A stretch of 64,000 bases of DNA. It comes from Ereboglobus sp. PH5-10 (lineage in GTDB: Bacteria; Verrucomicrobiota; Verrucomicrobiia; Opitutales; Opitutaceae). A program made the translations under genes and the position numbers. The notes under the pieces were generated by a model, which saw nothing but the letters and a program-made list of their open reading frames with translations, was not told where the DNA came from and searched no databases. The stretch covers positions 62,001 to 126,000 of the forward strand of contig NZ_JAQFIP010000009.1 in NCBI RefSeq assembly GCF_029504735.1. The letters are read 5' to 3'. Below are positions 2,153 to 63,187 of this stretch, piece after piece (position 1 is the stretch's first letter; each line of letters opens with the position of its first letter).

Positions 2153-3292
2153 ATGGCTACTCCCACCTCAAAACTCCTCTACGCGGCTTCCGCCAACAAT
2201 CCAGACCAGCTTTATTTCGGACGCGTCAGCGTGCCCGATCCGTTTATCGCGTTTTCGATCGCGGGCAAAAAATACGCCATCGTCAACGCGCTCGAATACG
2301 CCCGCGTCAAGCGCGACTCCGCCTTTGACGTCGTGCTGCCCCTCGAAACCTACGCCGAGAAGGCAATGGAGCGCTTCGGCAAGTTCGGACGCCTCTCACC
2401 CGCCGAAACCATTGCCGTGATCGCCGCCGAGTTCGGGCAAAAATCCTTCCTCGTGCCCGAGGATTTTCCCGCCAGCCTCTACGCGCGCCTCTCGATTCTG
2501 CACGGCATCAAACTCGAGCCCGTCAACGGCCCCATTTTCCCCGAGCGCGAAATCAAGACACCCGCCGAGGCCGCGAAAATCAAGGAGGGCAACCGTTGCG
2601 CCGCGGCAGGCATCGCCGCCGCCGAAAAAGTGCTCAAGGAAAGTAAAATCTCCAACGGAAAACTCACGTGGCAACGCAAGCCGCTCACCTCCGAGCGCCT
2701 CAGGACCGCCATCGAAATCGCCTGCCTCGAGGCCGGCTCGCTTTCAATCGACACCATCGCCGCGGGCGGCAACCAAGCCTGCGACCCGCACCACGGCGGC
2801 AGCGGCGTGCTCCGCGCCAACCAGCTCATCGTCGTGGACGTGTTCCCGCGCGTGCAGGCGACCGGCTACCATGGCGACATGACGCGCACGTTCCTCAAGG
2901 GCCGCGCCAACGACTTTCAGAAAAAACTCGTCGCCACCGTGCGCGAGGCCCAGCTCGCCGCGCTCAAGCTCGTCAAGGCGGGCGTCAACGGACAAGTCGT
3001 GCACCAGGCCGTCAACGACACCTTCTCCAAACACGGCTACAAAACCGAGCGCACCGAGAAAGGAGCCACCGGCTTTTTCCACGGCACCGGCCACGGACTC
3101 GGCCTCGCCGTGCACGAGGCCCCGCGCGTGAGCACCGTCGATTACGTTTTGAAGGCGGGCTCGGTTGTCACCATCGAGCCGGGTCTCTATTATCCCGGCC
3201 ACGGCGGCTGCCGCATCGAGGACGTCGTGCAAGTCACCGACGCCAAACCCAAGATGCTCTCCAGCTTCCACTACAACTGGGAAATTAAATAA
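2153..3292 (+). CDS. M24-family metallopeptidase (Xaa-Pro aminopeptidase type)
   Basis: The protein has 379 residues. An N-terminal creatinase-like domain (about 1-140) precedes a C-terminal pita-bread catalytic domain (about 150-379). All five metal ligands expected for the family are visible: D in IVVDVFPR, D in GDMTRTF, H in GTGHGLG, E in TIEPGLY and E in CRIEDVV. The likely reaction is removal of N-terminal residues from peptides, often before proline; substrate cannot be read from sequence. No signal peptide is visible, so it is cytoplasmic. ATG 2153 is used rather than GTG 2114, because homology to the family begins shortly after it. Confidence 0.88.
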   Translation: MATPTSKLLYAASANNPDQLYFGRVSVPDPFIAFSIAGKKYAIVNALEYARVKRDSAFDVVLPLETYAEKAMERFGKFGRLSPAETIAVIAAEFGQKSFLVPEDFPASLYARLSILHGIKLEPVNGPIFPEREIKTPAEAAKIKEGNRCAAAGIAAAEKVLKESKISNGKLTWQRKPLTSERLRTAIEIACLEAGSLSIDTIAAGGNQACDPHHGGSGVLRANQLIVVDVFPRVQATGYHGDMTRTFLKGRANDFQKKLVATVREAQLAALKLVKAGVNGQVVHQAVNDTFSKHGYKTERTEKGATGFFHGTGHGLGLAVHEAPRVSTVDYVLKAGSVVTIEPGLYYPGHGGCRIEDVVQVTDAKPKMLSSFHYNWEIK

Positions 3293-3402
3293 ATGCGGAA
3301 TGCGGATTTCGAAATGCGGAATGAAAACTGAAATCTGGAAATCCGCGCGCATATAACGCTTGCGTCCGGCAATTCCGCATTCCGAAATCCGCATTCCGCA
3401 TT
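3292..3402. repeat. Imperfect inverted repeat upstream of rfaE1
   Basis: The left arm (3292-3323, built from AATGCGG units) pairs with the right arm (3372-3402, CCGCATT units) over about 30 positions with few mismatches. The right arm ends three bases before the rfaE1 start codon and the left arm begins at the stop codon of the preceding gene. The same CCGCATTCCGCATT motif recurs just before nuoM (63155-63184) and a fragment appears before gltX (about 24113-24127). Confidence 0.85.
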
Positions 3403-3405
3403 CGT

Positions 3406-4901: not shown

Positions 4902-5009
4902 ATAGTGTGATTTAAGAATATAGAAAGAGACAGCGCCCCCTCCGAAAAACCAACGGCGCGGCAGCGCCCCTCCGACTTCTTAATTCATAATTCTTAATTC
5001 TTAATTTTA
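4902..5009. repeat. Repeat-rich spacer before gmhB
   Basis: The spacer has an AT-rich left part (ATTTAAGAATATAG) and a right part made of repeated TTAATTC/TAATTCTTAATT units that ends at the gmhB start codon. Between them are two direct copies of AGCGCCCC(C)TCCGA. It has the general layout of the other hairpin spacers in this window, with weaker pairing. Confidence 0.5.
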
Positions 5010-5543
5010 ATGAAGGCCCTGTTTCTCGACCGCGACGGCACGCTTATCATCGACAAGCACTACCTCCACGATCCGGAAGGCGTGGAGCTTTTTCCCGGCG
5101 TGGCCGAAAGCATCGCGCACGCGCGCAAACTCGGCTACCGGCTTTACCTTATCACAAACCAGTCCGGCATCGGGCGCGGTTATTACACCGAGGCGGACGC
5201 CGTTCGTTGCAACGAACGCATGGAGCAGCTCATCGGGCTCGGCCCCCGTCCGCTCTTCGCCGAAATCTGCATCGCGCCCGAAACACCCGAGCAGCCCCAG
5301 CGCTATCGCAAACCCTCGCCGCGTTTCATCCTCGAGATGATCGCGCGCGACAACCTCGACCCCGCGCAATGCTGGATGGTCGGCGACCGCGACGCCGACA
5401 TCGACGCCGGCCTCAACGCAAAAATTCACCCCGCCGCGCTCTGCACCGGCAAACTCACCCGCGCCGACTGGGCTGCGATTCCCGCCTATCGCGACGTGCC
5501 CGTGTTCGACGACTTCCCGGCATTCGCGCGCACGCTGGAATAA
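5010..5543 (+). CDS. gmhB: D,D-heptose 1,7-bisphosphate phosphatase-like HAD phosphatase
   Basis: The protein has 177 residues and is of the HAD superfamily, GmhB/HisB-N type. It has motif I FLDRDGTLI, motif II LITNQSGIGRGY, a K in RKPSP (motif III) and motif IV MVGDRDADIDAG. It should remove the C7 phosphate in ADP-heptose synthesis, which fits rfaE1 upstream. The usual GmhB zinc loop (CxH...CxC) is not intact: only one Cys (EICIAP) is present and the loop is shortened, so the substrate could differ. The start codon lies right after an AT-rich repeat with no Shine-Dalgarno. Confidence 0.8.
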   Translation: MKALFLDRDGTLIIDKHYLHDPEGVELFPGVAESIAHARKLGYRLYLITNQSGIGRGYYTEADAVRCNERMEQLIGLGPRPLFAEICIAPETPEQPQRYRKPSPRFILEMIARDNLDPAQCWMVGDRDADIDAGLNAKIHPAALCTGKLTRADWAAIPAYRDVPVFDDFPAFARTLE

Positions 5544-52675: not shown

Positions 52676-52691
52676 AGGAAAAGCAAGAGGC

Positions 52692-52804
52692 AGGAATTGG
52701 AAATTCCAAACAGACGCAACTAAACCGCACCCGCATCTTTTTCATTCATAATTTCCACAGACCAGCACGCGCCGAAGTCCGATACTTTTTAATTTCCAAA
52801 TCCT
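52692..52804. repeat. Inverted repeat in the nuoA-nuoB spacer
   Basis: AGGAATTGGAAATT (52692-52705) pairs with AATTTCCAAATCCT (52791-52804) at 13 of 14 positions. The following TAATTTCTAATTTTCC continues the repeat pattern up to the nuoB start. Confidence 0.75.
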
Positions 52805-52826
52805 AATTTCTAATTTTCCCCCGCTC

Positions 52827-53510
52827 ATGAGCAATCCCGCCACCACGCCAACATCGTCGCACCTTCCCACGCCGCCGCCGGCGGGCATTTCGGTGGAGGA
52901 TCGCGAAAGCATGCGCAGGCAGGGCGTCCTGCTCACGAGTTTCAACGAAATCTACAACTGGGGGCGCACCAACTCCATCTGGCCGCTCCAGTTCGGCCTC
53001 GCCTGCTGCGCGATTGAGATGATCTGCGTGGCCGCGGCGCGTTTCGACATCGCGCGTTTCGGCGCCGAGATTTTCCGCGCCTCGCCCCGCCAGGCCGACC
53101 TCATGATCGTGAACGGCACCGTCACGAAAAAAATGCTCCCGCAAGTCGTCCGCCTCTGGAACCAGATGGGCGAGCCGAAGTTTTGCATCGTCATGGGCGC
53201 GTGCGCCAGCTCCGGCGGCCCGTTCAAGGAAGGTTATAATGTCGTCAAGGGCATCGACCGTTTCATCCCCGTCGATGTGTATGTGCCCGGCTGTCCGCCG
53301 CGCCCCGAGGCGTTGCTCCACGGTCTCATGGAGCTCCAGAAAAAAATGCGCGAGGAACCCCTCACCGGCCCGGACGCCCCGCGCTACTTCCGCAAGGACA
53401 CCACCTGCGAATATCCGATCCCCGAGTTCGGCGAGCACGACCTCGTGCCACCATACAATTCCGAACTCTGGAAACCGCCCGCGCCCATCGTGCGCGAGGG
53501 AAAGGCATAA
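52827..53510 (+). CDS. nuoB: NADH-quinone oxidoreductase subunit B
   Basis: The protein has 227 residues and is a peripheral subunit holding Fe-S cluster N2. Cluster ligands are the CC pair in [10 protein letters not shown], the Cys in MGACASSGG and the Cys in [13 protein letters not shown]. The last 30 residues ([16 protein letters not shown]...) extend beyond the usual core. The foreign lipoprotein gene starts 21 bp after the stop. Confidence 0.96.
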
Positions 53511-53531
53511 TTTTAATTAATTTTCATCAAT

Positions 53532-54419
53532 ATGAACCGCTTTATAAGCATCGCCTTTTATATGTTTTTTATTTTGATAGTTTGTGGTTGTGGCCCAACT
53601 AAAACTGAGCGCGATATGGCTGAGCGTCTTGACAAGGTTGAGGCAATGCTAACCCAAACACAGATAGAGATGACCGCTATCACGAAGTCACTTAGAGCCA
53701 CACAGGATGAAGCATTAAAGGCGAGGGCCGCAATTATTGAGCTTGAGAAAAATCACCGAAAAGCAACTATGATTTCCGATTTCTACACCTTAAAGGGAGA
53801 AGTTTTTATTGTAAATCGAGCCGATGAATCATTTCAATTAGGAGGCGTTTGCCTGAGCGTATATTCCAAAAAAGAATTTGATGATTATATAAAAAGGGTC
53901 CGCGGAGAAAAAGAGAAAACTCTAAGGAGTTTGTATGTCCGATTAAAGTCGGCGGACGATTCTCACAAAAAAACACTCGCTGAATATGATGCCTTACAGG
54001 AAGATACAAACGAAAAGTATCCAATTTTAAAATTAGTGAAACAGGAATCATGGCCTCAATCATTAAAGGATGATTATAATAAAAGGAAAAAACGACTAGA
54101 TGAGTTAGGAAGCCCTCTTGGCGGGGTATTAGAGCGTAAAAAAACAGAAATTAAGCGCATTGAAAAGTCCATTGCTTTAGTTATTTCTGGCGATTTTTAT
54201 TACCAAAACCTACCCGCTCCCAAAATAACAACTCAGACAAACTCGAATGGTTCATATAAAGTTGTTCTAAAAAGAAATGAGCAATATGTATTGGTTTGTA
54301 ATGCAAAAAAATGGGATGAACAACTTTATTGGTTTGTGCCAATACTTCCATTGGCTAATGAACAAAATAGCGCGGAAATATTATTAAATAATAACAATAT
54401 ACATAAAGGTGAGTTTTAA
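53532..54419 (+). CDS. AT-rich orphan lipoprotein inserted in the nuo operon
   Basis: The protein has 295 residues. Signal segment AFYMFFILIVCGC with lipobox; predicted lipoprotein. A coiled coil follows (about 25-75, ERLDKVEAMLTQTQIEMTAI), then a small beta domain (DFYTLKGEVFIVNRADESFQLGGV), a second charged helical stretch with many Lys/Glu (about 115-230), and a C-terminal beta part (GSYKVVLKRNEQYVLVCN). No complex I subunit resembles it. Base composition is visibly AT-rich, below 40% GC by eye, against well over 60% for nuoB and nuoC, and codons are correspondingly A/T-ending. This points to recent horizontal acquisition. Confidence 0.85.
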   Translation: MNRFISIAFYMFFILIVCGCGPTKTERDMAERLDKVEAMLTQTQIEMTAITKSLRATQDEALKARAAIIELEKNHRKATMISDFYTLKGEVFIVNRADESFQLGGVCLSVYSKKEFDDYIKRVRGEKEKTLRSLYVRLKSADDSHKKTLAEYDALQEDTNEKYPILKLVKQESWPQSLKDDYNKRKKRLDELGSPLGGVLERKKTEIKRIEKSIALVISGDFYYQNLPAPKITTQTNSNGSYKVVLKRNEQYVLVCNAKKWDEQLYWFVPILPLANEQNSAEILLNNNNIHKGEF

Positions 54420-54456
54420 TAACTGACCTGTTTCATAAATATTTTCAATTTCTCCC

Positions 54457-55122
54457 GTGGAAACCCTCGAACAAATCCGTGACCGCATCGCCGCCAAGTT
54501 CGGCGCCGGCACCGTCACGCTCATCACAAACCCAGGCCCCTCCGCGCAACACTCGCTCCTGCTCGTGGCGCACGCCGCGCGCGACATCGCCCGCTTCCTG
54601 CACGACGATCCCGCGCTCCGCCTCGACTACTGCTCCAACGCCACCGGCGTTGACTGGCCCGACAAGGAAATCGTCGAAACCGTAAAGACCACCCAGCCCG
54701 ACCCCGCCGGCGGCCCCGACAAAGTCGTCGAAACAAAAATCAAGCGCGTCCAGCCCGGTTGCCTCGAAGCCGTTTACCACCTTTACTCAATCGCGTTGAA
54801 AAGCGCCGCGCCCGTCATCATCCGCATGCGCACGGCCAACCGCACCGACGACGTCACCCTTCCCTCGCTCACGCCCGTCTGGCGCTCGTGCGAGTTTCAG
54901 GAACGCGAAATCTACGACCTCTACGGCATCGTTTTCACCGGCCACCCCGACCTCCGCCGCATCCTCATGTGGGACGAATTTAAGGACCACCCTATGCGCA
55001 AAGACTACACCGGCCCCGACGACTACGAATGGGAACCCACGCCTCACGGCGAGGTGCTGGAGCGCGCCAAAGCCCATTATCCGACACCTCCAGCCAGCAC
55101 CTCGCCGAAAGGTGAAATGTGA
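54457..55122 (+). CDS. nuoC: NADH-quinone oxidoreductase subunit C
   Basis: The protein has 221 residues and starts with GTG at 54457. The 30-kDa subunit signature is [21 protein letters not shown] followed by [14 protein letters not shown]. Not fused to nuoD. Its last codons (TSPKGEM) lie in the left arm of a hairpin that spans the nuoC-nuoD junction. Confidence 0.95.
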
Positions 55123-55243
55123 AAAACAGACACACGCATCGCATGAATAATTTTTCCACTCCATCCGTGCCCAAAACAACGAGCGCTCCCGAAACCGGAT
55201 GTCCGGTTTCACCTTTCACCTTTCACACTTCACCTTTCGCCGG
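55101..55243. repeat. Hairpin element spanning the nuoC-nuoD junction
   Basis: The left arm (55101-55124, GGTGAAATGTGAAA core) is complementary to the right arm (55208-55243, TTTCACCTTTCACACTTCACC pattern). The left arm contains the nuoC stop and the right arm lies inside the nuoD frame, where it is read as FTFHTSPFAG. Confidence 0.8.
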
Positions 55244-56396
55244 GCCGTCGTCCGCAAGCGGAGCAACTGTCCGGGCGGTGAACGACGAATTCCACGGCGA
55301 CCTGCTCGAAATCTCCCTCGGCCCGCACCACCCCTCGACCCACGGCGTGTTCCGCATGAACGCCTCGCTCGACGGCGAGATCGTCACCAAGCTCAAGCCC
55401 GTTTTCGGCTACCTGCACCGCAACCACGAGAAACTCGGCGAGACGAACTCCTACCTCGCCAACGTCCCCTACACCGACCGCCTCGACTACCTCGCCTCGC
55501 TCACCAACAACTGGGCCTACGTGCACGCCGTCGAAAAACTCGCCGGCATCACCCCCACCGAACGCTGCGAATACCTCCGCGTCATCCTCGGCGAACTCGG
55601 CCGCATCATCAACCACGTCTGCCTCGTCGGCTTTCTCCTCAACGACCTCGGCACCTCCTTCACCCCGCTCCTCTACTCCCTGCGCGAACGCGAACGCATG
55701 CTCGACCTGCTCGAGGAACTCACCGGCGCGCGCATGATGTATAATTTCTTCCGCTTCGGCGGACTCCGCACCGACGTCCCCGCCGACTGGCTCGCCCGCC
55801 TCAAGCACTACCTCGAAGGCCTCTTCGCGCGCTACATGGACGAGCAGGACGCGCTCCTCACCGGCAACGAAATCCTCCTCGCGCGCACCCAGGGCACCGG
55901 CATCCTCAAGCCCGGCCTCGCCATCTCCGCCGGCATCACCGGCCCCGGCCTCCGCGCCAGCGGCGTCGATTACGACATCCGCAAAGTTGACAAATACTCC
56001 ATCTACGACCGCTTCGATTTCCGCGTCCCCCTCGGCGAGCACGGCGACACCTACGACCGCTACATGATGCGCATGCTCGAAATGCGCGAGTCGGTGAAAA
56101 TCATCCTGCAAGCCATGCGCGACCTGCCCGACGGCCCCGTCAACGACCCCAAGGCCAAGTCGCGCGGCCTCCGCCCGAAAGCCGGCGAAGCCTACGGACG
56201 CATCGAATGCCCGAAAGGCGAACTCGGTTTCTATCTCATCAGCGACGGCACGCCCAACCCGTATCGTTACCGCGTGCGCCCGCCCTCGTTCATCAACCTC
56301 ACCGTCCTTGAGGACATGTGCGTCGGCGGCACGCTGGCCGACGCCATCATCACGCTCGGCAGCATCGACATCGTGCTCGGGGAAGTGGACCGCTGA
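55143..56396 (+). CDS. nuoD: NADH-quinone oxidoreductase subunit D
   Basis: The protein has 417 residues and is the 49-kDa subunit of the quinone-binding module. Conserved stretches are ISLGPHHPSTHGVFR, FGYLHRNHEKLGE, YTDRLDYLASLTNNWAY, RARTQGTG-type loop LARTQGTGIL and the end DIVLGEVDR. The N-terminal 45 residues before EFHGDLLEI are not conserved and partly come from the hairpin element. Start options are ATG 55143 and GTG 55119, the latter overlapping the nuoC stop. Confidence 0.95.
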   Translation: MNNFSTPSVPKTTSAPETGCPVSPFTFHTSPFAGPSSASGATVRAVNDEFHGDLLEISLGPHHPSTHGVFRMNASLDGEIVTKLKPVFGYLHRNHEKLGETNSYLANVPYTDRLDYLASLTNNWAYVHAVEKLAGITPTERCEYLRVILGELGRIINHVCLVGFLLNDLGTSFTPLLYSLRERERMLDLLEELTGARMMYNFFRFGGLRTDVPADWLARLKHYLEGLFARYMDEQDALLTGNEILLARTQGTGILKPGLAISAGITGPGLRASGVDYDIRKVDKYSIYDRFDFRVPLGEHGDTYDRYMMRMLEMRESVKIILQAMRDLPDGPVNDPKAKSRGLRPKAGEAYGRIECPKGELGFYLISDGTPNPYRYRVRPPSFINLTVLEDMCVGGTLADAIITLGSIDIVLGEVDR

Positions 56397-56399
56397 CGC

Positions 56400-56545
56400 G
56401 GAAAAACCTGAAGACCTGAAAGCCTGAAGACTGAAATCAAACCACGGCAAACATGACTCTTTTTAAAATCACCACCATTACAACCAATCGCTCAAGGACG
56501 GCTGATTCAGCCCTTCAGTCCTTCAGCCCTTCAGCCCTTTTCCTC
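56400..56545. repeat. Inverted repeat in the nuoD-nuoI spacer
   Basis: Left arm 56400-56438 (repeated CCTGAAG units) and right arm 56502-56545 (repeated CTTCAGCC units) are largely complementary over about 40 bp. The right arm ends two bases before the nuoI start codon. Confidence 0.85.
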
Positions 56546-56547
56546 CC

Positions 56548-57312
56548 ATGCTCGGCTTAGGCATACTCAAAGGTTTTTATATAACGACGAAAAATCTCGT
56601 CGGCAGCTATTTCACGACCGAGCGGTTGACGACCCTCGAGTATCCGGAAGTGCGCGCCAAGCTCCCGCCCGCGTCGCGCACGTTCCCGTTCCTTGTTTAC
56701 GACGGCGACAATCCGGTTGACGGACTGCGCTGTGTCGCCTGCCGCATCTGCGAAAAGGAGTGCCCGCCGCAGTGCATCTACATTGTCCCCGAGCGCGACG
56801 AAAAGGGCAAGGTCATGAAAAAGCCGCGCATCTTCGACATCGATTACAGCGTGTGCATGGGCTGCCAGATCTGCGTCGAGGCGTGCCCCTTCGACTCGAT
56901 CAAGATGGACAACATTTACGAAATCGCCGTGCGCGACCGTTACGAGCCGCTCCTCATGCACCGCGAGCAACTCTCAAAACCCAACACCTACTTCCACGAA
57001 ATCAACCCGGTCGACGCGACCGAAGTGGACACCCGCCTCGCCGAGGAAAAACGCAAAGCCGAGGCGCGCGCCAAGGCCGCCGCTGCTGCAAAAGCGTCCG
57101 CCGCCGCGAAAGCCGCCGCAGCAGCAACACCCGCCGCCCCCGCCGACGCAGCGCAGACTGCCAAGTCTGCCCCCGCGCCCGCGCCCGAATCCGCCCAGCC
57201 GCCTGCCCCCACTTCCGCTCCGGCTCCGGCTCCCGCCAAACCCGACGAGTCCGCGCCGACCGCCGACAAGCCCGCCGCGCCATCCACCCTCAACCCACCC
57301 GCCGCGCAATGA
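56548..57312 (+). CDS. nuoI: NADH-quinone oxidoreductase subunit I with Ala/Pro-rich tail
   Basis: The protein has 254 residues. Two 4Fe-4S motifs are complete: CVACRICEKECPPQC and CMGCQICVEACPF. The conserved core ends near residue 164. Residues 165-254 are a low-complexity tail rich in Ala, Lys and then Pro (KAEARAKAAAAAKAS, later PAPAPESAQPPAP), absent from typical NuoI of about 160-180 residues. It precedes nuoH here, whereas the common order is H then I. The stop overlaps an ATG that opens a repeat-encoded frame. Confidence 0.94.
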   Translation: MLGLGILKGFYITTKNLVGSYFTTERLTTLEYPEVRAKLPPASRTFPFLVYDGDNPVDGLRCVACRICEKECPPQCIYIVPERDEKGKVMKKPRIFDIDYSVCMGCQICVEACPFDSIKMDNIYEIAVRDRYEPLLMHREQLSKPNTYFHEINPVDATEVDTRLAEEKRKAEARAKAAAAAKASAAAKAAAAATPAAPADAAQTAKSAPAPAPESAQPPAPTSAPAPAPAKPDESAPTADKPAAPSTLNPPAAQ

Positions 57313-57316
57313 GCAT

Positions 57317-57460
57317 TTCACCAACCGCCCCCGGAACACTTTCGTCGGCCGCCCCCGGAACACTTTCGTCGGCCACACCCGGAACACTTTCACCAACCGC
57401 ACTTGGAACACTTTCGCCGGCCGCACCTGGAACGCCCGCGCTGGCCGCATCCGAACCGTC
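57317..57460. repeat. Six tandem copies of a 24-bp unit
   Basis: Units begin at 57317, 57341, 57365, 57389, 57413 and 57437; the consensus contains GGCCGCCCCCGGAACACTTT. The first five are well conserved. In a frame opened by ATG 57309 (overlapping the nuoI stop and open to 57617) they encode an eight-residue repeat of the form S-x-x-A-P-G-T-L. The gene-free stretch 57313-57626 otherwise holds the palindromes upstream of the transposase gene, including GGAAGCCC/GGGCTTCC at 57480-57498. Confidence 0.9.
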
Positions 57461-57507
57461 CGTTCCGCCCTCGCGCACGGGAAGCCCGAAGGGCTTCCGT
57501 CCCCTTG

Positions 57508-57544
57508 CCCAGGGTTGCCGCAGCGAAGCGGAGGCTACCCTGGG
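57508..57544 (+). repeat. REP1 palindrome, 5' side of the transposase gene
   Basis: CCCAGGGT...ACCCTGGG with inner GCCGC/GCGG pairing. It is the reverse complement of the element at 58166-58202 with three substitutions, two of which compensate each other in the stem. Confidence 0.88.
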
Positions 57545-57564
57545 TATCCGATTATTGAATACAT

Positions 57565-57581
57565 CAACCCCAACGGGGTTG
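57565..57581 (+). repeat. REP2 palindrome, 5' side
   Basis: CAACCCC-AAC-GGGGTTG. The mirror copy is at 58131-58147. Confidence 0.85.
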
Positions 57582-57626
57582 TGTCCCTCCGCTCTCGCCG
57601 CGCCCATCGCCGCCTGATCTCCCGCC

Positions 57627-58082
57627 ATGTCGCAATCGTTTTCCGCCACATATCCGCACCTCGTCTTTTCGACAAAAGACCGCGCGCCATTGTTGCGCGA
57701 CAAAGGCGCGCGCGCGGAAATCCACGCCTACCTCGGCGGCATTTCAAAACAACTGGATTGCGTGCCGCTCATCACCGGCGGAGTCGAAGACCACGCGCAC
57801 ATGCTGGCGCAATTAGCCCGCACCATGACGATTGCCGATTGGGTAAAAGAGTTGAAGCGCGTATCAACGCTATGGATTAAGGAACGGTTTCCCGCGCTTC
57901 ATGATTTTTCATGGCAGTCGGGCTACGGTGTTTTTTCCGTCAGCCAATCCAACACCGGCGCCGTCGAGGAATACATCGCGAACCAAGAGGCGCACCACCG
58001 CAAAACGACGTTTCAGGAGGAGTATCGCGCGCTGCTCCAGAAACACAAAATAGAATGGGATGAACGCTATGTTTGGGAATAA
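57627..58082 (+). CDS. REP-associated Y1 (IS200-like) transposase
   Basis: The protein has 151 residues. The HUH motif is GGVEDHAHMLAQL (His-x-His), and the nucleophilic Tyr lies in VEEYIANQEAHHRK, as in IS200/IS605-like TnpA and RAYT proteins. The N-terminus YPHLVFSTKDRAPLL is typical. Paired palindromes in mirrored order flank the gene, which identifies it as a REP-associated tyrosine transposase rather than a plain IS200. It is inserted between nuoI and nuoH in the operon direction and looks intact. Confidence 0.9.
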   Translation: MSQSFSATYPHLVFSTKDRAPLLRDKGARAEIHAYLGGISKQLDCVPLITGGVEDHAHMLAQLARTMTIADWVKELKRVSTLWIKERFPALHDFSWQSGYGVFSVSQSNTGAVEEYIANQEAHHRKTTFQEEYRALLQKHKIEWDERYVWE

Positions 58083-58130
58083 TCAACATGCGCATTATTC
58101 CGCGTCCGCGCCTCGCGCCCGCGCCGGACA

Positions 58131-58147
58131 CAACCCCGTTGGGGTTG
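58131..58147 (-). repeat. REP2 palindrome, 3' side
   Basis: CAACCCC-GTT-GGGGTTG, mirror of 57565-57581. Confidence 0.85.
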
Positions 58148-58165
58148 CCGGCATTTTTTCCGTTA

Positions 58166-58202
58166 CCCAAGGTAGCCTCCGCTTCGCCGCGGCAACCTTG
58201 GG
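58166..58202 (-). repeat. REP1 palindrome, 3' side
   Basis: CCCAAGGT...ACCTTGGG with inner CCGC pairing; mirror of 57508-57544. A further small hairpin GAACGGC/GCCGTTC follows at 58213-58229. Confidence 0.88.
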
Positions 58203-58316
58203 CTATGTGACAGAACGGCGTTGCCGTTCAAAAACGCCGGACGCTGGAGTGCGACTTTGCCGTTCGTTTTCACCCCGCCCGCTTTCCCGCAAAATTTCAC
58301 CTTTTTACACGCACCC

Positions 58317-59549
58317 ATGAACCCTTTCACCGCCACAATCTGGTTCAAATCCTTTGCCGACTGGGCCGAAAACCTCCCCGTCCGCATCCACGATTGGATA
58401 CTCGGCCTCCTTCCCGCATGGCCCTGGCTGCACTGGCTCACCACCGCGCTGCTCGCCATCGTGCTCATCCTCACATTTTACGGACTCTTCTTTGCGATGA
58501 TCACCGTCACCGAGCGCAAGGGCTTGGGACGTTTTCAAAACCGCCCCGGCCCCAACCGCACCGGACCCTTCGGGCTGATCCAACCCTTTGCCGACGCCGT
58601 CAAGGCCATCTGCAAGGAGGACATCGTGCCCGCCGCCGCCGACAAGGTCCTGCACTTCATCGCGCCCTGCGCCACCGTTTTTTTCGGCCTGCTCACGCTC
58701 GCCATCATCCCCGCCGGACGCCACTTCACCGCGCTCAACCTCGACGCCGGACTCCTTTATTTCTTCGCCGCCGGCGCCGCCTCCGAGCTCGCCATCTTCA
58801 TGGCCGGCTGGTCGTCGCACAACAAATACTCGCTCCTCTCCGCCATGCGCGCGCTCGCGCAACTCATCTCGTTCGAACTCCCGCTGCTCCTCGTCACGGT
58901 GCCCGTCGTCATGGTCGCCGGCACGCTCTCGCTGCCCGGCATCATCGCCCAGCAAGGCGCCTGGACGCTCGGCGGCCTCGTCCCCGCGTGGAATTTTTTC
59001 ACACCCTGGGGTTTCTTCGGCTTCATTGTGTTTTTCATCGCCGCGCTCGCCGAGACGAACCGCTGCCCGTTTGACCTTCCCGAGGGCGAGTCCGAAATCA
59101 TCGCCGGGCACCTCACCGAGTATTCAGGATTCAAATACGCGCTCTTTTTCATGGGCGAGTATTTCGGCATGCTCGCGCTCTCCGGCCTCGGCGTGACGCT
59201 CTTCTTCGGCGGCTGGAACGCCCCCTGCGAATTCCTGCAATTCATCCCCTCCTACTGCTGGTTCACGATAAAACTCTTCATGATGATGTTCATGTTCATC
59301 TGGATACGCGCCACGCTTTTGCGCCTGCGCATCGACCAGCTCATGCGCCTCGCGTGGAAACTCCTCGTGCCGCTCGCGCTCATCAACCTCGTCGTCGTCG
59401 CGTTCTGGCTGCGCACGGGCGACTGGGCCGGCCCGCTGCAACTCGTCCGCTGGGCCGTCGCCATCCTCCTCGAACTCGTCCCCTTCATCCTCATCGGCCG
59501 CCACATGAGCAAGGGCCTCGGCCCGAGAAAATACAAATACGCGCAATGA
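58317..59549 (+). CDS. nuoH: NADH-quinone oxidoreductase subunit H
   Basis: The protein has 410 residues with eight to nine membrane helices and contacts the quinone tunnel. Conserved parts: MITVTERKGLGRFQNRPGPN, GPFGLIQPFADAVKAICKED, ELAIFMAGWSSHNKYSLL, RALAQLISFELPL and ALAETNRCPFDLPEGESE. Longer than E. coli NuoH (325) mainly at the N-terminus and in the loop around TLSLPGIIAQQG. It lies downstream of the RAYT insertion, so its expression may depend on read-through. Confidence 0.95.
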   Translation: MNPFTATIWFKSFADWAENLPVRIHDWILGLLPAWPWLHWLTTALLAIVLILTFYGLFFAMITVTERKGLGRFQNRPGPNRTGPFGLIQPFADAVKAICKEDIVPAAADKVLHFIAPCATVFFGLLTLAIIPAGRHFTALNLDAGLLYFFAAGAASELAIFMAGWSSHNKYSLLSAMRALAQLISFELPLLLVTVPVVMVAGTLSLPGIIAQQGAWTLGGLVPAWNFFTPWGFFGFIVFFIAALAETNRCPFDLPEGESEIIAGHLTEYSGFKYALFFMGEYFGMLALSGLGVTLFFGGWNAPCEFLQFIPSYCWFTIKLFMMMFMFIWIRATLLRLRIDQLMRLAWKLLVPLALINLVVVAFWLRTGDWAGPLQLVRWAVAILLELVPFILIGRHMSKGLGPRKYKYAQ

Positions 59550-59852
59550 AATTTTCGATTTTCGATTCTCGATTTTCGATTGTGGAGCTACCGCTCCGCA
59601 ACACATCCGAAAAAGGAACCCCGCCCGAAGGTGGGGTAATGGATGTTGGGCTGGGCCTGCCGAGGCATTCGTCCATATCGAGCCCCCAAAGAGGCGCCCA
59701 CCGCCGCGAAACCTAAACACCAGCCAACCGACCCCCAAGTAAGATCTAACGCGCTTATGAAATTCTGGATTTTAAAACCACTGTTCTGCTTCGCATTCAA
59801 ACCCGCGCGGTAGCGCGCAATCAAAAATCGAGAATCCAAAATCGAAAATTCC
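59548..59852. repeat. Composite inverted repeat filling the nuoH-nuoJ spacer
   Basis: Outer arms 59548-59582 and 59819-59852 (TTTTCGATT units) are complementary at about 31 of 34 positions. Inside are GGAGC-TACC-GCTCC (59584-59597) and CGCGC-GGTA-GCGCG (59804-59817), the same two tetraloop hairpins as in the element at 33357-33440. The central 200 bp have no gene. Confidence 0.9.
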
Positions 59853-59855
59853 TCC

Positions 59856-60386
59856 ATGTCCCTCTCGCTTCTCATCTTCATCCTCATCGCCATTGCCACG
59901 CTTGGCTCGGCGGCGGTCGCGCTCGCGTTGAAAAACATCATCCGCGCGGCGCTCCTGCTTGTCGTGAGCTGGGTCGGCATCGCGGCGTTTTACCTGTGGG
60001 CCGACGCGCAATTCGTGGCCTTCGCGCAAGTGCTCGTTTATGTCGGCGCCATCTCGATGGTCGTTCTCTTCGGCGTGGTGCTCACGCGCCGCGCGCCCGT
60101 CAGCGTTGTTGACACCACCGTCACGCCCTCGATGCGCGCGGTCGCCGGGGTCGCCTCCGCCGGGCTCGTCGCGCTCGCCGTCGTCTGGGGAATCCTCGGC
60201 ACCGAGCTGCCGCAAACATCATCGCGCGCCGCCGCGCCCGTCGTGAACATGCGCGCGCTCGGCCTCGAACTCATGGGCCAATACGCCGCCGCCATCCTCA
60301 TCGTCGGCGCGCTCCTCACCGTCGCGCTCCTCGGCTCCGTCGTGGTCGCTTCTCATGAAGAGAAGCTAATGAAAAATGAAAAATGA
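59856..60386 (+). CDS. nuoJ: NADH-quinone oxidoreductase subunit J
   Basis: The protein has 176 residues with five membrane helices. ALKNIIRAALLLVVSWVGIAAFYL and FVAFAQVLVYVGAISMVVLFGVVL are the family core. The last nine residues (EEKLMKNEK) are encoded in the left arm of the repeat in the next spacer. Confidence 0.93.
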   Translation: MSLSLLIFILIAIATLGSAAVALALKNIIRAALLLVVSWVGIAAFYLWADAQFVAFAQVLVYVGAISMVVLFGVVLTRRAPVSVVDTTVTPSMRAVAGVASAGLVALAVVWGILGTELPQTSSRAAAPVVNMRALGLELMGQYAAAILIVGALLTVALLGSVVVASHEEKLMKNEK

Positions 60387-60477
60387 AGAATCAGGAGAAG
60401 GCCTCCGGCTAATCCGAAAAAGCAACCGACGACGCATGCGCCATTATCCATTATACATTTTAAATTATACATTTTCC
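60368..60477. repeat. Repeat-bearing nuoJ-nuoK spacer
   Basis: The left part (60368-60389, AATGAAAAATGAAAAATG units) overlaps the nuoJ stop; the right part (60441-60477, CATTATACATTTTAAATTATACATTTTCC pattern, read in pieces) ends just before nuoK. Between them lies a half copy of the palindrome found inside mpl (60402-60419). Confidence 0.7.
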
Positions 60478-60479
60478 TC

Positions 60480-60797
60480 ATGAGCGCCCTTCACCTCTGC
60501 CTGATTTTTTCGACGCTGCTATTTGCGCTGGGCCTCGCCGCCGCGCTCTCCCGCAGCAACGCCATCCTCGTGCTCCTCGGCGTCGAGCTGATGCTCAACG
60601 CGGCCAACATCAACTTCATCGCCTTCTGGCGTTTCTCGCCGCAATTCGCGAGCAACCCGCACGCCGGCGTCATCTTCGCGATCTTCTCGATCGCGGTCGC
60701 CGCCGCCGAGGCCGCGGTCGGCCTCGCGCTCATCATCGCCGTCTACCGCCACTACAAAAACGTGCGCCTGCAAGACGCCGATCAGCTCAAAGGCTGA
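60480..60797 (+). CDS. nuoK: NADH-quinone oxidoreductase subunit K
   Basis: The protein has 105 residues with three membrane helices, an MrpC-like antiporter-related subunit. The conserved Glu residues are in LVLLGVELMLNAANINFIAF and VAAAEAAVGLALIIAVYRH. A weak ATCAGC/GCTGAT hairpin with a T run (60781-60802) overlaps its stop codon. Confidence 0.95.
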   Translation: MSALHLCLIFSTLLFALGLAAALSRSNAILVLLGVELMLNAANINFIAFWRFSPQFASNPHAGVIFAIFSIAVAAAEAAVGLALIIAVYRHYKNVRLQDADQLKG

Positions 60798-60812
60798 TTT
60801 TTCAAACCAATC

Positions 60813-60919
60813 AACCACGGAGAACACGGAGAAACACAGAGCCAAACCCATGAAGAATTTAACTCATGCAACCTGTCTCCTTTTCCGCCTCTCCGTGCTC
60901 CTCCGTGCCCTCCGTGGTT
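60813..60919. repeat. Hairpin element upstream of nuoL (copy 1)
   Basis: AACCACGGAGAACACGGAG at 60813-60831 is complementary to the CTCCGTGCCCTCCGTGGTT right arm. The 62 bases 60834-60895 differ at a single position from 63062-63123 in copy 2. Confidence 0.92.
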
Positions 60920-60921
60920 AA
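60850..60921 (+). CDS. Micro reading frame in the copy 1 hairpin
   Basis: The frame has 23 codons from ATG 60850, beginning MKNLTHATCLL and ending LLRALRG, with a TAA stop. The same frame is kept in copy 2 with one amino-acid change (Val to Ala) and two silent changes. There is no ribosome binding site. It may be chance conservation of a young duplicate or a leader peptide. Confidence 0.25.
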   Translation: MKNLTHATCLLFRLSVLLRALRG

Positions 60922-60954
60922 TTAACTCCGAGAAAAATTTCCAAAACACTCTTC

Positions 60955-63045
60955 ATGCTTTCCGCAAAATACATCTGGCTCATTCCGTTGCTTCCGCTCA
61001 TCGCCGCGGCAATCGGGACATTCCTTCCGCGCGGCGGCAGCTCGCGCAAAATCGCCTCCGCCTCCGCGATCCTCTCGATGGCCGCCGGGTTCGTGCTCTC
61101 GTGCCTCGCGCTCCGCGGCGCGCTCGCCAATCCCGCCGCGCACGACACTTGGAATTTCCGCTGGCTCGATTTCGGCGCCACCACGCTCGAACTCGGTTTC
61201 ATCAACGACCCGCTCACCGCGTTCATGCTCGTGATGGTTACGTTTGTAGGCTCGCTCATTTTTATTTTCAGCACCGGCTACATGAAGGAGGACGCCAACG
61301 CCGCGAAGTTTTTCTGCTACCTCTCGTTCTTCGCCGCCGCGATGCTCGGCCTCGTCGTTTCCAACAGCCTGCTTCTCCTCTTCGTGTGCTGGGAACTCGT
61401 CGGGCTCGCCTCGTATCTGCTCATCGGTTTCTGGTTCACAAAACCCGCCGCCGCGGCCGCCGCGAAAAAAGCCTTCATCACCACGCGCATCGGCGACCTC
61501 GGCCTGCTCATCGGCATCTGCTGGCTCTACAACGCCGGGGGCACGCTGCTATTCTATGACGGCGGCAACGGGTTTCTCGAAACCAGCGTCCTCGGGGCAC
61601 TCACCGTCGTGCTGCCTTGCGGACTTGCCGTCTCGACCGCAATCGGCCTCCTCATCTTTTGCGGCGCGGTTGGCAAATCAGGCCAGTTCCCGCTGCATGT
61701 CTGGCTCCCCGACGCGATGGAAGGCCCGACACCCGTCTCCGCGCTCATCCACGCCGCAACAATGGTCGCGGCTGGCGTGTTTCTCATTGCCCGCGTTTAT
61801 CCGCTCATGGCGTTGGATCAGGCCAACATTTTACGTGATGGATTTGATGCCGTGCTCAGTGGAGCGCCTCTCGAAATTTATTCCTCCACCGGTATCAAGG
61901 CTCTCACCGTCGTCGCCATCATCGGCGCGATCACCGCGCTCTTCGGCGCGGTCGTCGCCGTGGCGCAAAACGACATCAAACGCATCCTCGCGTTTTCGAC
62001 CGTCTCCCAACTCGGCTACATGATGCTCGCCATCGGTGTCGGCGCGTGGCCCGTGGCGATCTTCCATCTTCTCACGCACGCATTTTTCAAGGCGCTGCTC
62101 TTCCTCGGCGCGGGCAGCGTCATCCACGCCGCGCATCACGAGCAGGACATCCGTTATCTCGGCGGACTCGCCCCGCGCATGAAGATCACCTTCGCCACCT
62201 TTGCCATCGGCATGATGGCGCTCGCCGGCGTGCCGTTCCTCTTCTCCGGTTTCTGGTCGAAGGAAGGCATCCTCCACGCCGCGCACGGCTGGACGGTCTC
62301 GCAACTGCCATTCTACGTCGCGCTCGTCGCCGTCGTGCTTACCGCGTTCTACATGACGCGCCTCGTCTGCGAAGTTTTCCTCGGCAAGGCCCGTTCGCAC
62401 GCCTCCGAGCACGCGCATGAAAACAGCCCCGCGATGACCCTGCCGCTCGTGCTCCTCGCCGTCTGCGCAATCGGCCTCGGTTTCCTCGGCACGCCCGCGT
62501 GGCCCTGGCTCCAGTCGATGCTCGAGGGCATCCCCGCCGACAAAATCCACGGTCACTCCATCTTCTCCGAACCCGGCCTCATGATCACGTCGATTGTGCT
62601 CGTCGCGCTCGGCATCGGCGTTGGTTGCGCGCTCTATTATTTCTTGCGCAAACGCAACACCACCGGCGAACTCGACCCGCTCGAAAAAGCCGCGCCCGCG
62701 CTCTGGACCGCGCTCGCCAACCGCCTCTACTTCGACGAACTCTACGCCGCGACCTTCGGACGCCTCTTCGACGCAATCGCGTGGCTCTCCGACGCGTTCG
62801 ACCGCCACGTTTGGGGCGGCCTCATAAACCTGATCGGCGGCCTCGGCCTGTTCGCCGGCGGCGTGAACCGCGAGTTTGACGAAAACACCCTCAACGGCGG
62901 TTTCGACACCGTGAGCGAGGACCTCCGCAAAACCGGCAAGGCATACAGCCGCGCCCAAACCGGCGACGCCCACGGCTACCTCCGCACCATGGCCCTCGGC
63001 TTCGCCGGTCTCATCGCAATCGTAATCCTCATCGTCGCCATCTGA
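60955..63045 (+). CDS. nuoL: NADH-quinone oxidoreductase subunit L
   Basis: The protein has 696 residues and is the distal antiporter-like proton channel. Conserved segments: FCYLSFFAAAMLGLVVSNSLL, WELVGLASYLLIGFW, KSGQFPLHVWLPDAMEGPTP, VSALIHAATMVAAGVFLIARV and AQNDIKRILAFSTVSQLGYM. The key Lys residues are in GKSGQFPLHVWL and DIKRILAFS. A long C-terminal part (about 540-696) includes the lateral helix region. It lies between two almost identical repeat copies. Confidence 0.96.
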   Translation: MLSAKYIWLIPLLPLIAAAIGTFLPRGGSSRKIASASAILSMAAGFVLSCLALRGALANPAAHDTWNFRWLDFGATTLELGFINDPLTAFMLVMVTFVGSLIFIFSTGYMKEDANAAKFFCYLSFFAAAMLGLVVSNSLLLLFVCWELVGLASYLLIGFWFTKPAAAAAAKKAFITTRIGDLGLLIGICWLYNAGGTLLFYDGGNGFLETSVLGALTVVLPCGLAVSTAIGLLIFCGAVGKSGQFPLHVWLPDAMEGPTPVSALIHAATMVAAGVFLIARVYPLMALDQANILRDGFDAVLSGAPLEIYSSTGIKALTVVAIIGAITALFGAVVAVAQNDIKRILAFSTVSQLGYMMLAIGVGAWPVAIFHLLTHAFFKALLFLGAGSVIHAAHHEQDIRYLGGLAPRMKITFATFAIGMMALAGVPFLFSGFWSKEGILHAAHGWTVSQLPFYVALVAVVLTAFYMTRLVCEVFLGKARSHASEHAHENSPAMTLPLVLLAVCAIGLGFLGTPAWPWLQSMLEGIPADKIHGHSIFSEPGLMITSIVLVALGIGVGCALYYFLRKRNTTGELDPLEKAAPALWTALANRLYFDELYAATFGRLFDAIAWLSDAFDRHVWGGLINLIGGLGLFAGGVNREFDENTLNGGFDTVSEDLRKTGKAYSRAQTGDAHGYLRTMALGFAGLIAIVILIVAI

Positions 63046-63050
63046 TTTTT

Positions 63051-63147
63051 AACCACGGAGAACACAGAGCCAAACCAATGAAGAATTTAACTCATGCAAC
63101 CTGTCTCCTTTTCCGCCTCTCCGCGCTCCTCCGCGCTCTCCGTGGTT
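63051..63147. repeat. Hairpin element downstream of nuoL (copy 2)
   Basis: AACCACGGAG at 63051-63060 is complementary to CTCCGTGGTT ending at 63147. The core matches copy 1 almost exactly. It is followed by a half copy of the CCGCATTCCGCATT repeat (63155-63184) that leads up to the nuoM start. Confidence 0.92.
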
Positions 63148-63149
63148 AA
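63078..63149 (+). CDS. Micro reading frame in the copy 2 hairpin
   Basis: The frame has 23 codons from ATG 63078 to TAA 63149, beginning MKNLTHATCLL and ending LLRALRG. It is the counterpart of the frame at 60850-60921. Whether it is translated is unknown. Confidence 0.25.
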   Translation: MKNLTHATCLLFRLSALLRALRG

Positions 63150-63187
63150 TTAATTCCGCACTCCGAAATCCGCATTCCGCATTTTCC

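Follow-up and report, generated by a model that had tools for sequence, protein, structure and literature searches.

Heptameric inverted repeats of the word GGGAATC have been described from Xanthomonas, with 70 and 75 inverse pairs in two species (Rehm et al., 2015; PMC4692102). In that account, the heptamers lie within 50 bp of the adjoining gene, near the stop on the coding strand and near the start on the non-coding strand, are found mostly between aligned and seldom between divergent genes, and are generally unlinked to mobile elements; their position is kept, while length and sequence vary. Here we describe hairpins of almost identical layout in the spacers of the nuo operon of Ereboglobus sp. 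PH5-10 (Opitutaceae), located in a window of 64,000 nucleotides that comprises positions 62001-126000 of contig C9 (NZ_JAQFIP010000009.1) of the genome G000 (3.58 Mb in 45 contigs). We lean, at somewhat better than even confidence, towards the interpretation that the nuo spacers are filled by discrete hairpin cassettes that are at least partly mobile and are tolerated in gaps away from promoters. As far as the Xanthomonas account goes, both systems have a 7-nt unit, an intergenic location and inverse pairs at stop and start. Xanthomonas has a single G-rich unit with quadruplex potential, whereas here many units occur per genome and no run of G is required: ATTTTCG, AATGAAA and AATTACG, as read from the sequence, have none. 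Further differences are that whole cassettes are exchanged at one gap, that 8- and 10-nt units occur, and that one element of approximately 109 nt is defined and dispersed.

In the P6b stem of the Nostoc tRNA-Leu(UAA) intron, 7-nt repeats line both sides and one repeat class has repeatedly been replaced by another (Kaasalainen et al., PMC4476775). By that description, a heptamer stem is kept while its repeat class is swapped in place, as in our case, but P6b belongs to a group I intron with two classes, whereas our hairpins occupy operon gaps and fall into many. TAACTGA repeats near starts without a Shine-Dalgarno (SD) sequence are scattered over distant phyla, and horizontal transfer has been suspected (MacGregor, 2015; PMC4679880). 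The hairpins described here resemble them in unit length, in their proximity to starts without SD and in their occurrence in distant phyla, whereas TAACTGA, in the published description, forms direct repeats of one word with almost no inverted pairs. GTAG-tagged repetitive extragenic palindromes (REPs) are dispersed intergenic palindromes with short, non-periodic stems that are linked to REP-associated tyrosine transposases (RAYT; PMC3733652). Palindromes of this kind lie beside some RAYT genes of G000; measured against that description, the periodic-arm hairpins differ in being unlinked to RAYT. The short tandemly repeated repetitive (STRR) heptamers are 7-nt repeats with shared words in cyanobacterial intergenic DNA. 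Arrays of AATTACG, which is the unit of the nuoK-nuoL gap of the congener G002 and of the nuoD-nuoI gap of G428, occur in Nostoc, Calothrix and Planktothrix and also in other phyla. A literature search over titles and the first part of abstracts revealed no description of the periodic-arm hairpin class for Verrucomicrobia; we make no such claim for other groups. Our analysis adds to these systems the many units per genome, one gap followed across 63 species, an element that looks mobile, and the separation from RAYT/REP.

The window contains nuoA-B-C-D-I-H-J-K-L-M, all on the + strand. NuoA, B, C, I, H, J, K and L were assigned by Pfam, nuoD and nuoM by similarity and position; genes were called by a simple dicodon script favouring SD-like starts, so that start positions are approximate. 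For comparison we used the sister species G001, with a median protein identity to G000 of approximately 97%, and the congeners G002 and G003. The operon spacers contain the following features:

52676-52826, + strand: nuoA-nuoB spacer, weak hairpin; right arm is a TTTCTAA-type array at 52786-52816
55103-55245, + strand: nuoC-nuoD junction hairpin, unit GGTGAAA/TTTCACC; right arm 55207-55238
56397-56547, + strand: nuoD-nuoI spacer hairpin, 8-nt unit ACCTGAAG / TTCAGCCC; arms 56403-56436 and 56506-56539
59550-59855, + strand: nuoH-nuoJ spacer hairpin, unit ATTTTCG; arms 59550-59582 and 59818-59850
60368-60479, + strand: nuoJ-nuoK spacer, degenerate arms AATGAAA (60368-60391) and CATTATA (60442-60473)
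60809-60923, + strand: nuoK-nuoL spacer hairpin, 9/10-nt unit CACGGAGAA / CTCCGTGCTC
63049-63151, + strand: nuoL-nuoM spacer hairpin, element common with nuoK-nuoL
63153-63183, + strand: ATTCCGC-type array directly upstream of nuoM, also present in G001 and G002

Six of the seven spacers were folded as RNA and compared with 200 shuffles, and H-J was judged from the complementarity of its arms. Good hairpins were found in five: C-D (z -5.05), D-I (z -2.7; 4 of 200 shuffles equal), K-L (z -5.3 on the sense and -9.2 on the antisense strand, with energies of -38.4 and -67.2), L-M (z -4.97), and H-J, where arms of 33 nt separated by 235 nt are 94% complementary and belong to the dispersed ATTTTCG family. 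A-B folds weakly (z -1.5; 16 of 200 shuffles equally well), and J-K gave no significant RNA hairpin (z +0.3; 119 of 200 shuffles equal). A first-pass annotation of the window had seen hairpins in all seven spacers, each built from a different unit. The first claim thus holds for five spacers; the second does not hold throughout, since one element recurs in K-L and in L-M, with 95% identity over 98 nt. The lengths of 90-300 nt, which it considered long, are long for the nuo operons of the family and ordinary in G000, where the median co-directional spacer measures 120 nt. The A-B spacer is near-identical in G001, G003 has different arrays there, and G002 retains a -4 overlap of nuoJ and nuoK. 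At the C-D junction, the right arm would be coding if the ATG at 55143 is the nuoD start; similarity of NuoD to G001 begins at that position, whereas the alignment with G007 starts at residue 2 of the longer frame. An Rfam scan of the window yielded tmRNA alone at gathering score, and no model was matched by the nuo hairpins. The annotation also rightly placed the same layout before two further genes, whose names derive from NCBIfam matches below the curated cut-offs:

3292-3403, + strand: AATGCGG hairpin before an rfaE1-like gene, of the nuo hairpin class and identical in G001
4977-5011, + strand: TTCTTAA right arm at the start of a gmhB-like gene, of the nuo hairpin class

Such repeats are widespread in G000, of which a contiguous sample of approximately 554-556 kb was analyzed. 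An inverted repeat scoring above all 40 dinucleotide shuffles was present in 85 of 283 spacers of 60-500 nt (approximately 554 kb), with about 7 expected, an excess that the first-pass annotation had anticipated. Sorted by neighbouring genes, these were 32 of 97 (+,+), 35 of 109 (-,-), 14 of 34 convergent and 4 of 43 divergent spacers. When G000 and G001 were pooled, with orthologs counted twice, 57 arrays of period 7 were found in 176 kb of non-coding DNA vs 10 in 774 kb of coding DNA. The corresponding numbers were 12 vs 4 for period 8, 1 vs 4 for period 9 and 8 vs 0 for period 10; periods 4, 5, 6 and 11-13 gave no array in this non-coding DNA, and period 14 is the double of 7. Arm length was 31-33 nt in 30 of the 57 period-7 arms. 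Units recurring among 59 large inverted repeats were ATTTTCG, AATGCGG, AGGAGTC, AATGAAA, GGTGAAA, CTGAAGG, CACGGAGAA, CACGGATTA, CGCAGATGA and others, while non-periodic REP-like palindromes such as GGTAGGGCGAACC stand apart from the periodic units.

The arm positions described for nuo are also seen when unique arrays from the co-directional spacers of three species are considered: of 54 arrays lying nearer the start, 42 end at most 25 nt from it, and of 43 lying nearer the stop, 30 begin at most 16 nt from it or overlap it. Arrays are purine-rich near the stop and, as had been noticed for the right arms, pyrimidine-rich near the start (p 0.002); the ATTTTCG, AAATTCC and AAATCCC kinds show the opposite bias. 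They are rare in divergent gaps (5/121 vs 83/412 co-directional, p 6e-6; without nuo 5/118 vs 46/356, p 0.006), a pattern consistent with harm to promoters. Between convergent genes, it is the non-periodic inverted repeats that are common (18/66 vs 40/343 co-directional). A placement restricted to operons was considered after a first count of 65/343 co-directional vs 1/66 convergent gaps and was given up when it weakened on a larger set without nuo (p 0.09).

The nuoD-nuoI gap was followed across the family. A NuoI match with an E value of at most 1e-40 was obtained for 65 of 150 genomes, and the gap was resolved in 63 of these and not in the other 2, the end of nuoD being located by motif in 18 loci. 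Gap length was -4 to 57 nt in 30 species and 69-301 nt in 32; the one remaining gap measures 847 nt. Among the 32 gaps of 69-301 nt, 21 carry period-7/8 arrays and 26 fold on the sense strand with z < -2 (30 simple shuffles each); two short gaps (G022, G209) still carry an array. Periodic paired arms recur at one gap with different units, about a dozen or more among the species. Read from the sequences and including below-threshold or single-clear-arm cases (G357, G002, G022), the units are CTGAAGGC (G000, G171, G494), AATGAAA (G001), ACTTCTT (G002, G022), ATTTTCG (G431, G017, G385, G479), AATTAAT (G007), AATGCAG (G008), GGAGACAG (G019), AATTAAG (G302), ATTGCGG (G496), ACTCCGC (G357, right side only), AATCCAG (G412, G429), ACTGAAAA (G413), GGAAAGCA (G418, G446), AATTACG (G428) and AATTAGA (G466); some of these words resemble one another. 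In six further species (G427, G444, G461, G476, G483, G499) a GGTTTTTGCGGAGCAAAAACC-like palindrome stands right before the nuoI start, and five of the six gaps have a related palindrome at or near the nuoD stop. Filled and short states coexist in 9 of 28 genera. The nuoD stop is TGA in 25 of 33 filled and 14 of 30 short gaps (p 0.02, uncorrected for kinship). The 847-nt gap (L055/L237, in G003) holds a gene that reads by eye like an ankyrin-repeat protein, and a heptamer-like right arm remains before nuoI.

Control gaps were taken from 26 relatives outside the genus, drawn from the 30 best NuoK loci among 66 genomes with a match. Gaps of at least 69 nt were found in 4/24 relatives for H-J, 2/24 for J-K, 12/26 for K-L and 14/25 for D-I. 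A -4 nt overlap is usual for H-J (14/24) and J-K (21/24), which fits the rare enlargement of these two gaps.

Closely related species may carry different hairpins in the same gap, as the first-pass annotation had proposed for orthologous spacers. Between G000 and G001, H-J changes from ATTTTCG to a CACGGAG hairpin, D-I from CTGAAG to AATGAAA, and one gap of a second nuo-like operon (named from its NuoL match) from ATTTTCG to CACGGAG between coding flanks that are 98% identical; K-L has AATTACG in G002 and a CGCAGAT type in G003. Out of 89 co-directional ortholog gaps of G000 and G001, 70 were conserved and 19 turned over, the latter with arrays in both species in 5 cases, in one in 5 and in neither in 9. 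Among the gaps listed, no clean insertion with target duplication was seen between these two genomes. Between G000 and G002, none of 25 gaps was conserved (arrays in both 8, one only 9, neither 8); where both had arrays, the unit differed in at least 5 of 8, and it was identical in H-J. G001 and G002 had 1 of 20 gaps conserved, the other 19 having arrays in both (6), one only (9) or neither (4). Arrays in one species did not significantly predict arrays in the other in any of the three pairs (Fisher p 0.07, 0.23 and 1.0), in a test that misses some 9/10-nt hairpins, such as H-J of G001, and in which the G002 gaps come largely from nuo operons.

Dispersal of a defined element, in either direction, was observed for one unit, ATTTTCG. 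Counting overlapping matches, its 17-mer occurs 48 times in G000, 16 in G001, 21 in G002, 32 in G003, 44 in G428, 21 in G479 and once in G385, and it has no match in 13 of 28 genomes searched; a longer pattern of the arm was present in 11 of the 387 genomes sampled from the phylum. We aligned 16 elements chosen for arms lying close together. Most have the order arm, palindrome, palindrome, arm (L339 lacks the usual loop), the outer words span 108-110 nt in nine, and the palindromes occur in either order, corresponding to the element in either direction. Median pairwise identity was 0.71, and one G000/G001 pair is 99% identical.

The unit AATTACG, with 15 matches in G428, reaches much further. 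At least 117 stretches of three consecutive copies were found across bacteria, and the matches listed include Cyanobacteria (Nostoc, Calothrix, Planktothrix), Bacteroidota, Acidobacteria, Planctomycetota, Ignavibacteria, Anaerolineae, Clostridia, Treponema, Gammaproteobacteria, Akkermansia and candidate phyla. Of 153 arrays counted among these listed matches, 21 (15 loci) had an inverted partner within 350 nt downstream and 7 (7 loci) upstream, compared with 2 and 2 for a reversed-word control. AATTACG hairpins hence occur far outside the family and more often in one arm polarity. With longest open frames taken as genes, the listed arrays in other phyla were seldom in divergent spacers (7/73 vs 69/336). 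A co-directional bias (42/73 vs 194/336 spacers) and a fixed polarity relative to genes were also considered for the matches listed, and neither was found.

A RAYT-like gene lies in the operon of the window:

57495-58215, + strand: Y1_Tnp (RAYT-like) gene at 57627-58082 between nuoI and nuoH; Pfam PF01797, E 2.3e-23

On either side it has a non-periodic arm of 57 nt, the two forming an inverted pair of a class distinct from the periodic-arm hairpins. The gene is absent in G001, where nuoI and nuoH are 12 nt apart. Directly 3' of nuoI and upstream of this gene, approximately five copies of a 24-nt tandem repeat occupy 57316-57450. G000 has 8 Y1_Tnp matches, within the 6-8 found in three genus members; G003 has 42. 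We inspected ten Y1_Tnp loci, namely that of the window, seven more of G000 and two of G001, one of them an ortholog. Five, including two orthologs, have non-periodic palindromes on both sides within approximately 330 nt (GTAGGGGCGCACC at two loci, GGTAGGGCGAAGCC, GGGAGCGCGGGCG and the 57-nt pair of the window), two have a palindrome on one side and three have none near the domain.

Some further observations concern the loops and neighbouring frames. Between nuoB and nuoC lies an AT-rich frame of 295 aa (53532-54419) that had no Pfam match; in G001 this gap holds a CACGGAG hairpin. The CACGGAG loops of K-L (60848-60923), L-M (63076-63151) and of B-C, H-J and L-M in G001 keep an ATG frame, by hand translation 17-23 codons long, which ends at the right arm with LLRALRG or LLRDLRG before the stop. 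Translationally coupled mini-genes were considered as a general rule and rejected, as ATG frames ending at the next start, such as those in the K-L and J-K loops, occur at chance: in co-directional spacers of G000 and G001, 101 of 299 have a frame reaching the next start, vs 99.9 after shuffling and 130 after reversal.

The hairpins might alternatively be functional intercistronic RNA elements, serving as decay barrier, processing site or for translational tuning, for which any complementary arms would suffice and units would be interchangeable. The recurrence of hairpins with many units in nuoD-nuoI, the sense-strand folding of most filled gaps, the hairpins of two nuo operons and two atp-like spacers, and the preference for co-directional over divergent gaps are all compatible with such a role, but several observations make us regard it as rather improbable. 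Nearly half of the species manage with a gap of at most 57 nt, often within one genus, and J-K folds no better than its shuffles. Arm mismatches on the sense strand of co-directional gaps in G000 were 31 A.C, 6 G.U and 30 other for periodic arms, opposite to the pattern expected under selection for mRNA pairing, which should tolerate G.U, and compared with 32, 19 and 29 for other inverted repeats; with G001 included, A.C and G.U numbered 51 v 8 and 56 v 30, respectively. This excess indicates that an mRNA hairpin is not preserved through wobble pairing. For each nuoD-nuoI gap of 69-301 nt (32 of 32), the antisense strand gave the lower folding energy, which partly reflects the abundance of A and C in the sense strand. 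Absence of SD, which the first-pass annotation had remarked on for the nuo genes, was seen at 0 of 10 nuo starts, three of which had been entered 1-3 nt off, and is a genome-wide rule that is not specific to nuo: an SD-like 4-mer precedes 29 of 380 genes, with about 20 expected by shuffling. The suggestion in that annotation that the hairpins act in start-site presentation, mRNA processing or differential subunit expression is not borne out, considering that their presence is polymorphic within genera, that arrays are not significantly predictive across turned-over orthologs and that starts without SD are general. Its idea of one common mechanism finds partial support in hairpins that are recurrent and exchangeable. 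The mRNA hairpin appears to be a consequence; its functional role is unproven, and both the mismatch pattern and the large number of short gaps speak against it.

In the cassette interpretation that we prefer, a cassette would be a non-coding segment of roughly 90-180 nt whose two inverted arms, each approximately 31 nt long, are built from a unit of 7, 8 or 10 nt and enclose a loop that often holds smaller palindromes. Cassettes would be gained, lost and exchanged whole, and tolerated between a stop and the next start with few bases left on each side, being rare in divergent gaps, where promoters lie. They may have spread as non-autonomous mobile DNA through a mobilising enzyme, and the stop-to-start placement may mainly be a residue of selection after insertion into short operon gaps. 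Several results weigh against this interpretation. It offers no explanation for the concentration of arrays in the two nuo operons (17/25 spacers vs 26/264 elsewhere in G000; 15/30 vs 14/167 in G001), apart from which two atp-like spacers and one pdh-like spacer, their genes named by eye from translations, hold periodic hairpins. Neutral tolerance alone predicts no deficit in convergent gaps, where arrays were found in 5/84 vs 83/412 co-directional (p 0.0015), a deficit that is weaker without nuo (5/82 vs 46/356, p 0.09) and absent in G002 (3/11). Many enlarged gaps lack an array, as threshold arrays were present in 2 H-J, 1 J-K, 2/26 K-L and 6/25 D-I gaps of the relatives; many K-L gaps are accordingly filled by other palindromes or by 10-nt hairpins that have degenerated. 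No target-site duplication, which would mark a miniature inverted-repeat transposable element (MITE) of a DDE transposon, was seen by eye in the flanks of the 16 ATTTTCG elements or at filled and short nuoD-nuoI gaps, and no common end sequence was seen across units. The AATCCAG 17-mer of G429 is confined to its own nuoD-nuoI hairpin and ATTTTCG in G385 has one exact 17-mer match, so within-genome dispersal fails to explain every case. Finally, a periodic-arm hairpin bordered a Y1_Tnp gene at none of the ten loci, and no mobilising enzyme was linked to the class. This last result also bears on the proposal that the hairpins are REP elements or REP doublets forming hairpins (REPINs) moved by a RAYT (Y1 transposase) like the one between nuoI and nuoH. 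That gene, the further Y1_Tnp matches of G000, the three loci with a periodic array at a distance of 0.7-1.4 kb and GTAG-type palindromes in some heptamer loops could point in this direction. With non-periodic palindromes as flanks wherever flanks are present, we consider it very improbable. As regards the GTAG or CGTC end tag of REPs, the ends of the ATTTTCG arms lack it, and the inner palindrome GCGCGGTAGCGCGC contains GTAG. Local generation, in which slippage expands a short word, template switching copies its inverse across the gap and each gap makes its own hairpin, would account for the near-singleton units, for the very many units of similar arm length and for the adjoining gaps of the second nuo-like operon, which mostly share AGGAGTC as local copying would give; slippage at polymerase contacts has been proposed for 7-nt repeats (cited in PMC4692102 and PMC4679880, as far as these accounts go). 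Nevertheless, the copies of ATTTTCG, unlike slippage products, have inner palindromes and length in common throughout the genome and between species, variant words were by eye not strictly mirrored in the partner arm, and period 7 is scarce in coding DNA, though purifying selection could explain that scarcity; we therefore hold local generation to be unlikely. Still more doubtful is that one machine writes hairpins of fixed architecture, with arms of approximately 31 nt and a 7-nt period, into operon gaps using arbitrary, changing units; such a generator, in our view just as doubtful, might be template- or foldback-driven and act in many phyla, with the mobility of ATTTTCG as a secondary outcome.

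Heptameric intergenic repeats have so far been noted in single lineages, and the mechanism behind them is not settled. That arms of one unit occur in unrelated phyla suggests either wide transfer or a shared process that generates them. Within the family, the nuoD-nuoI gap across 63 species represents a natural experiment on the arrival and departure of hairpins and on whether they affect operon expression.

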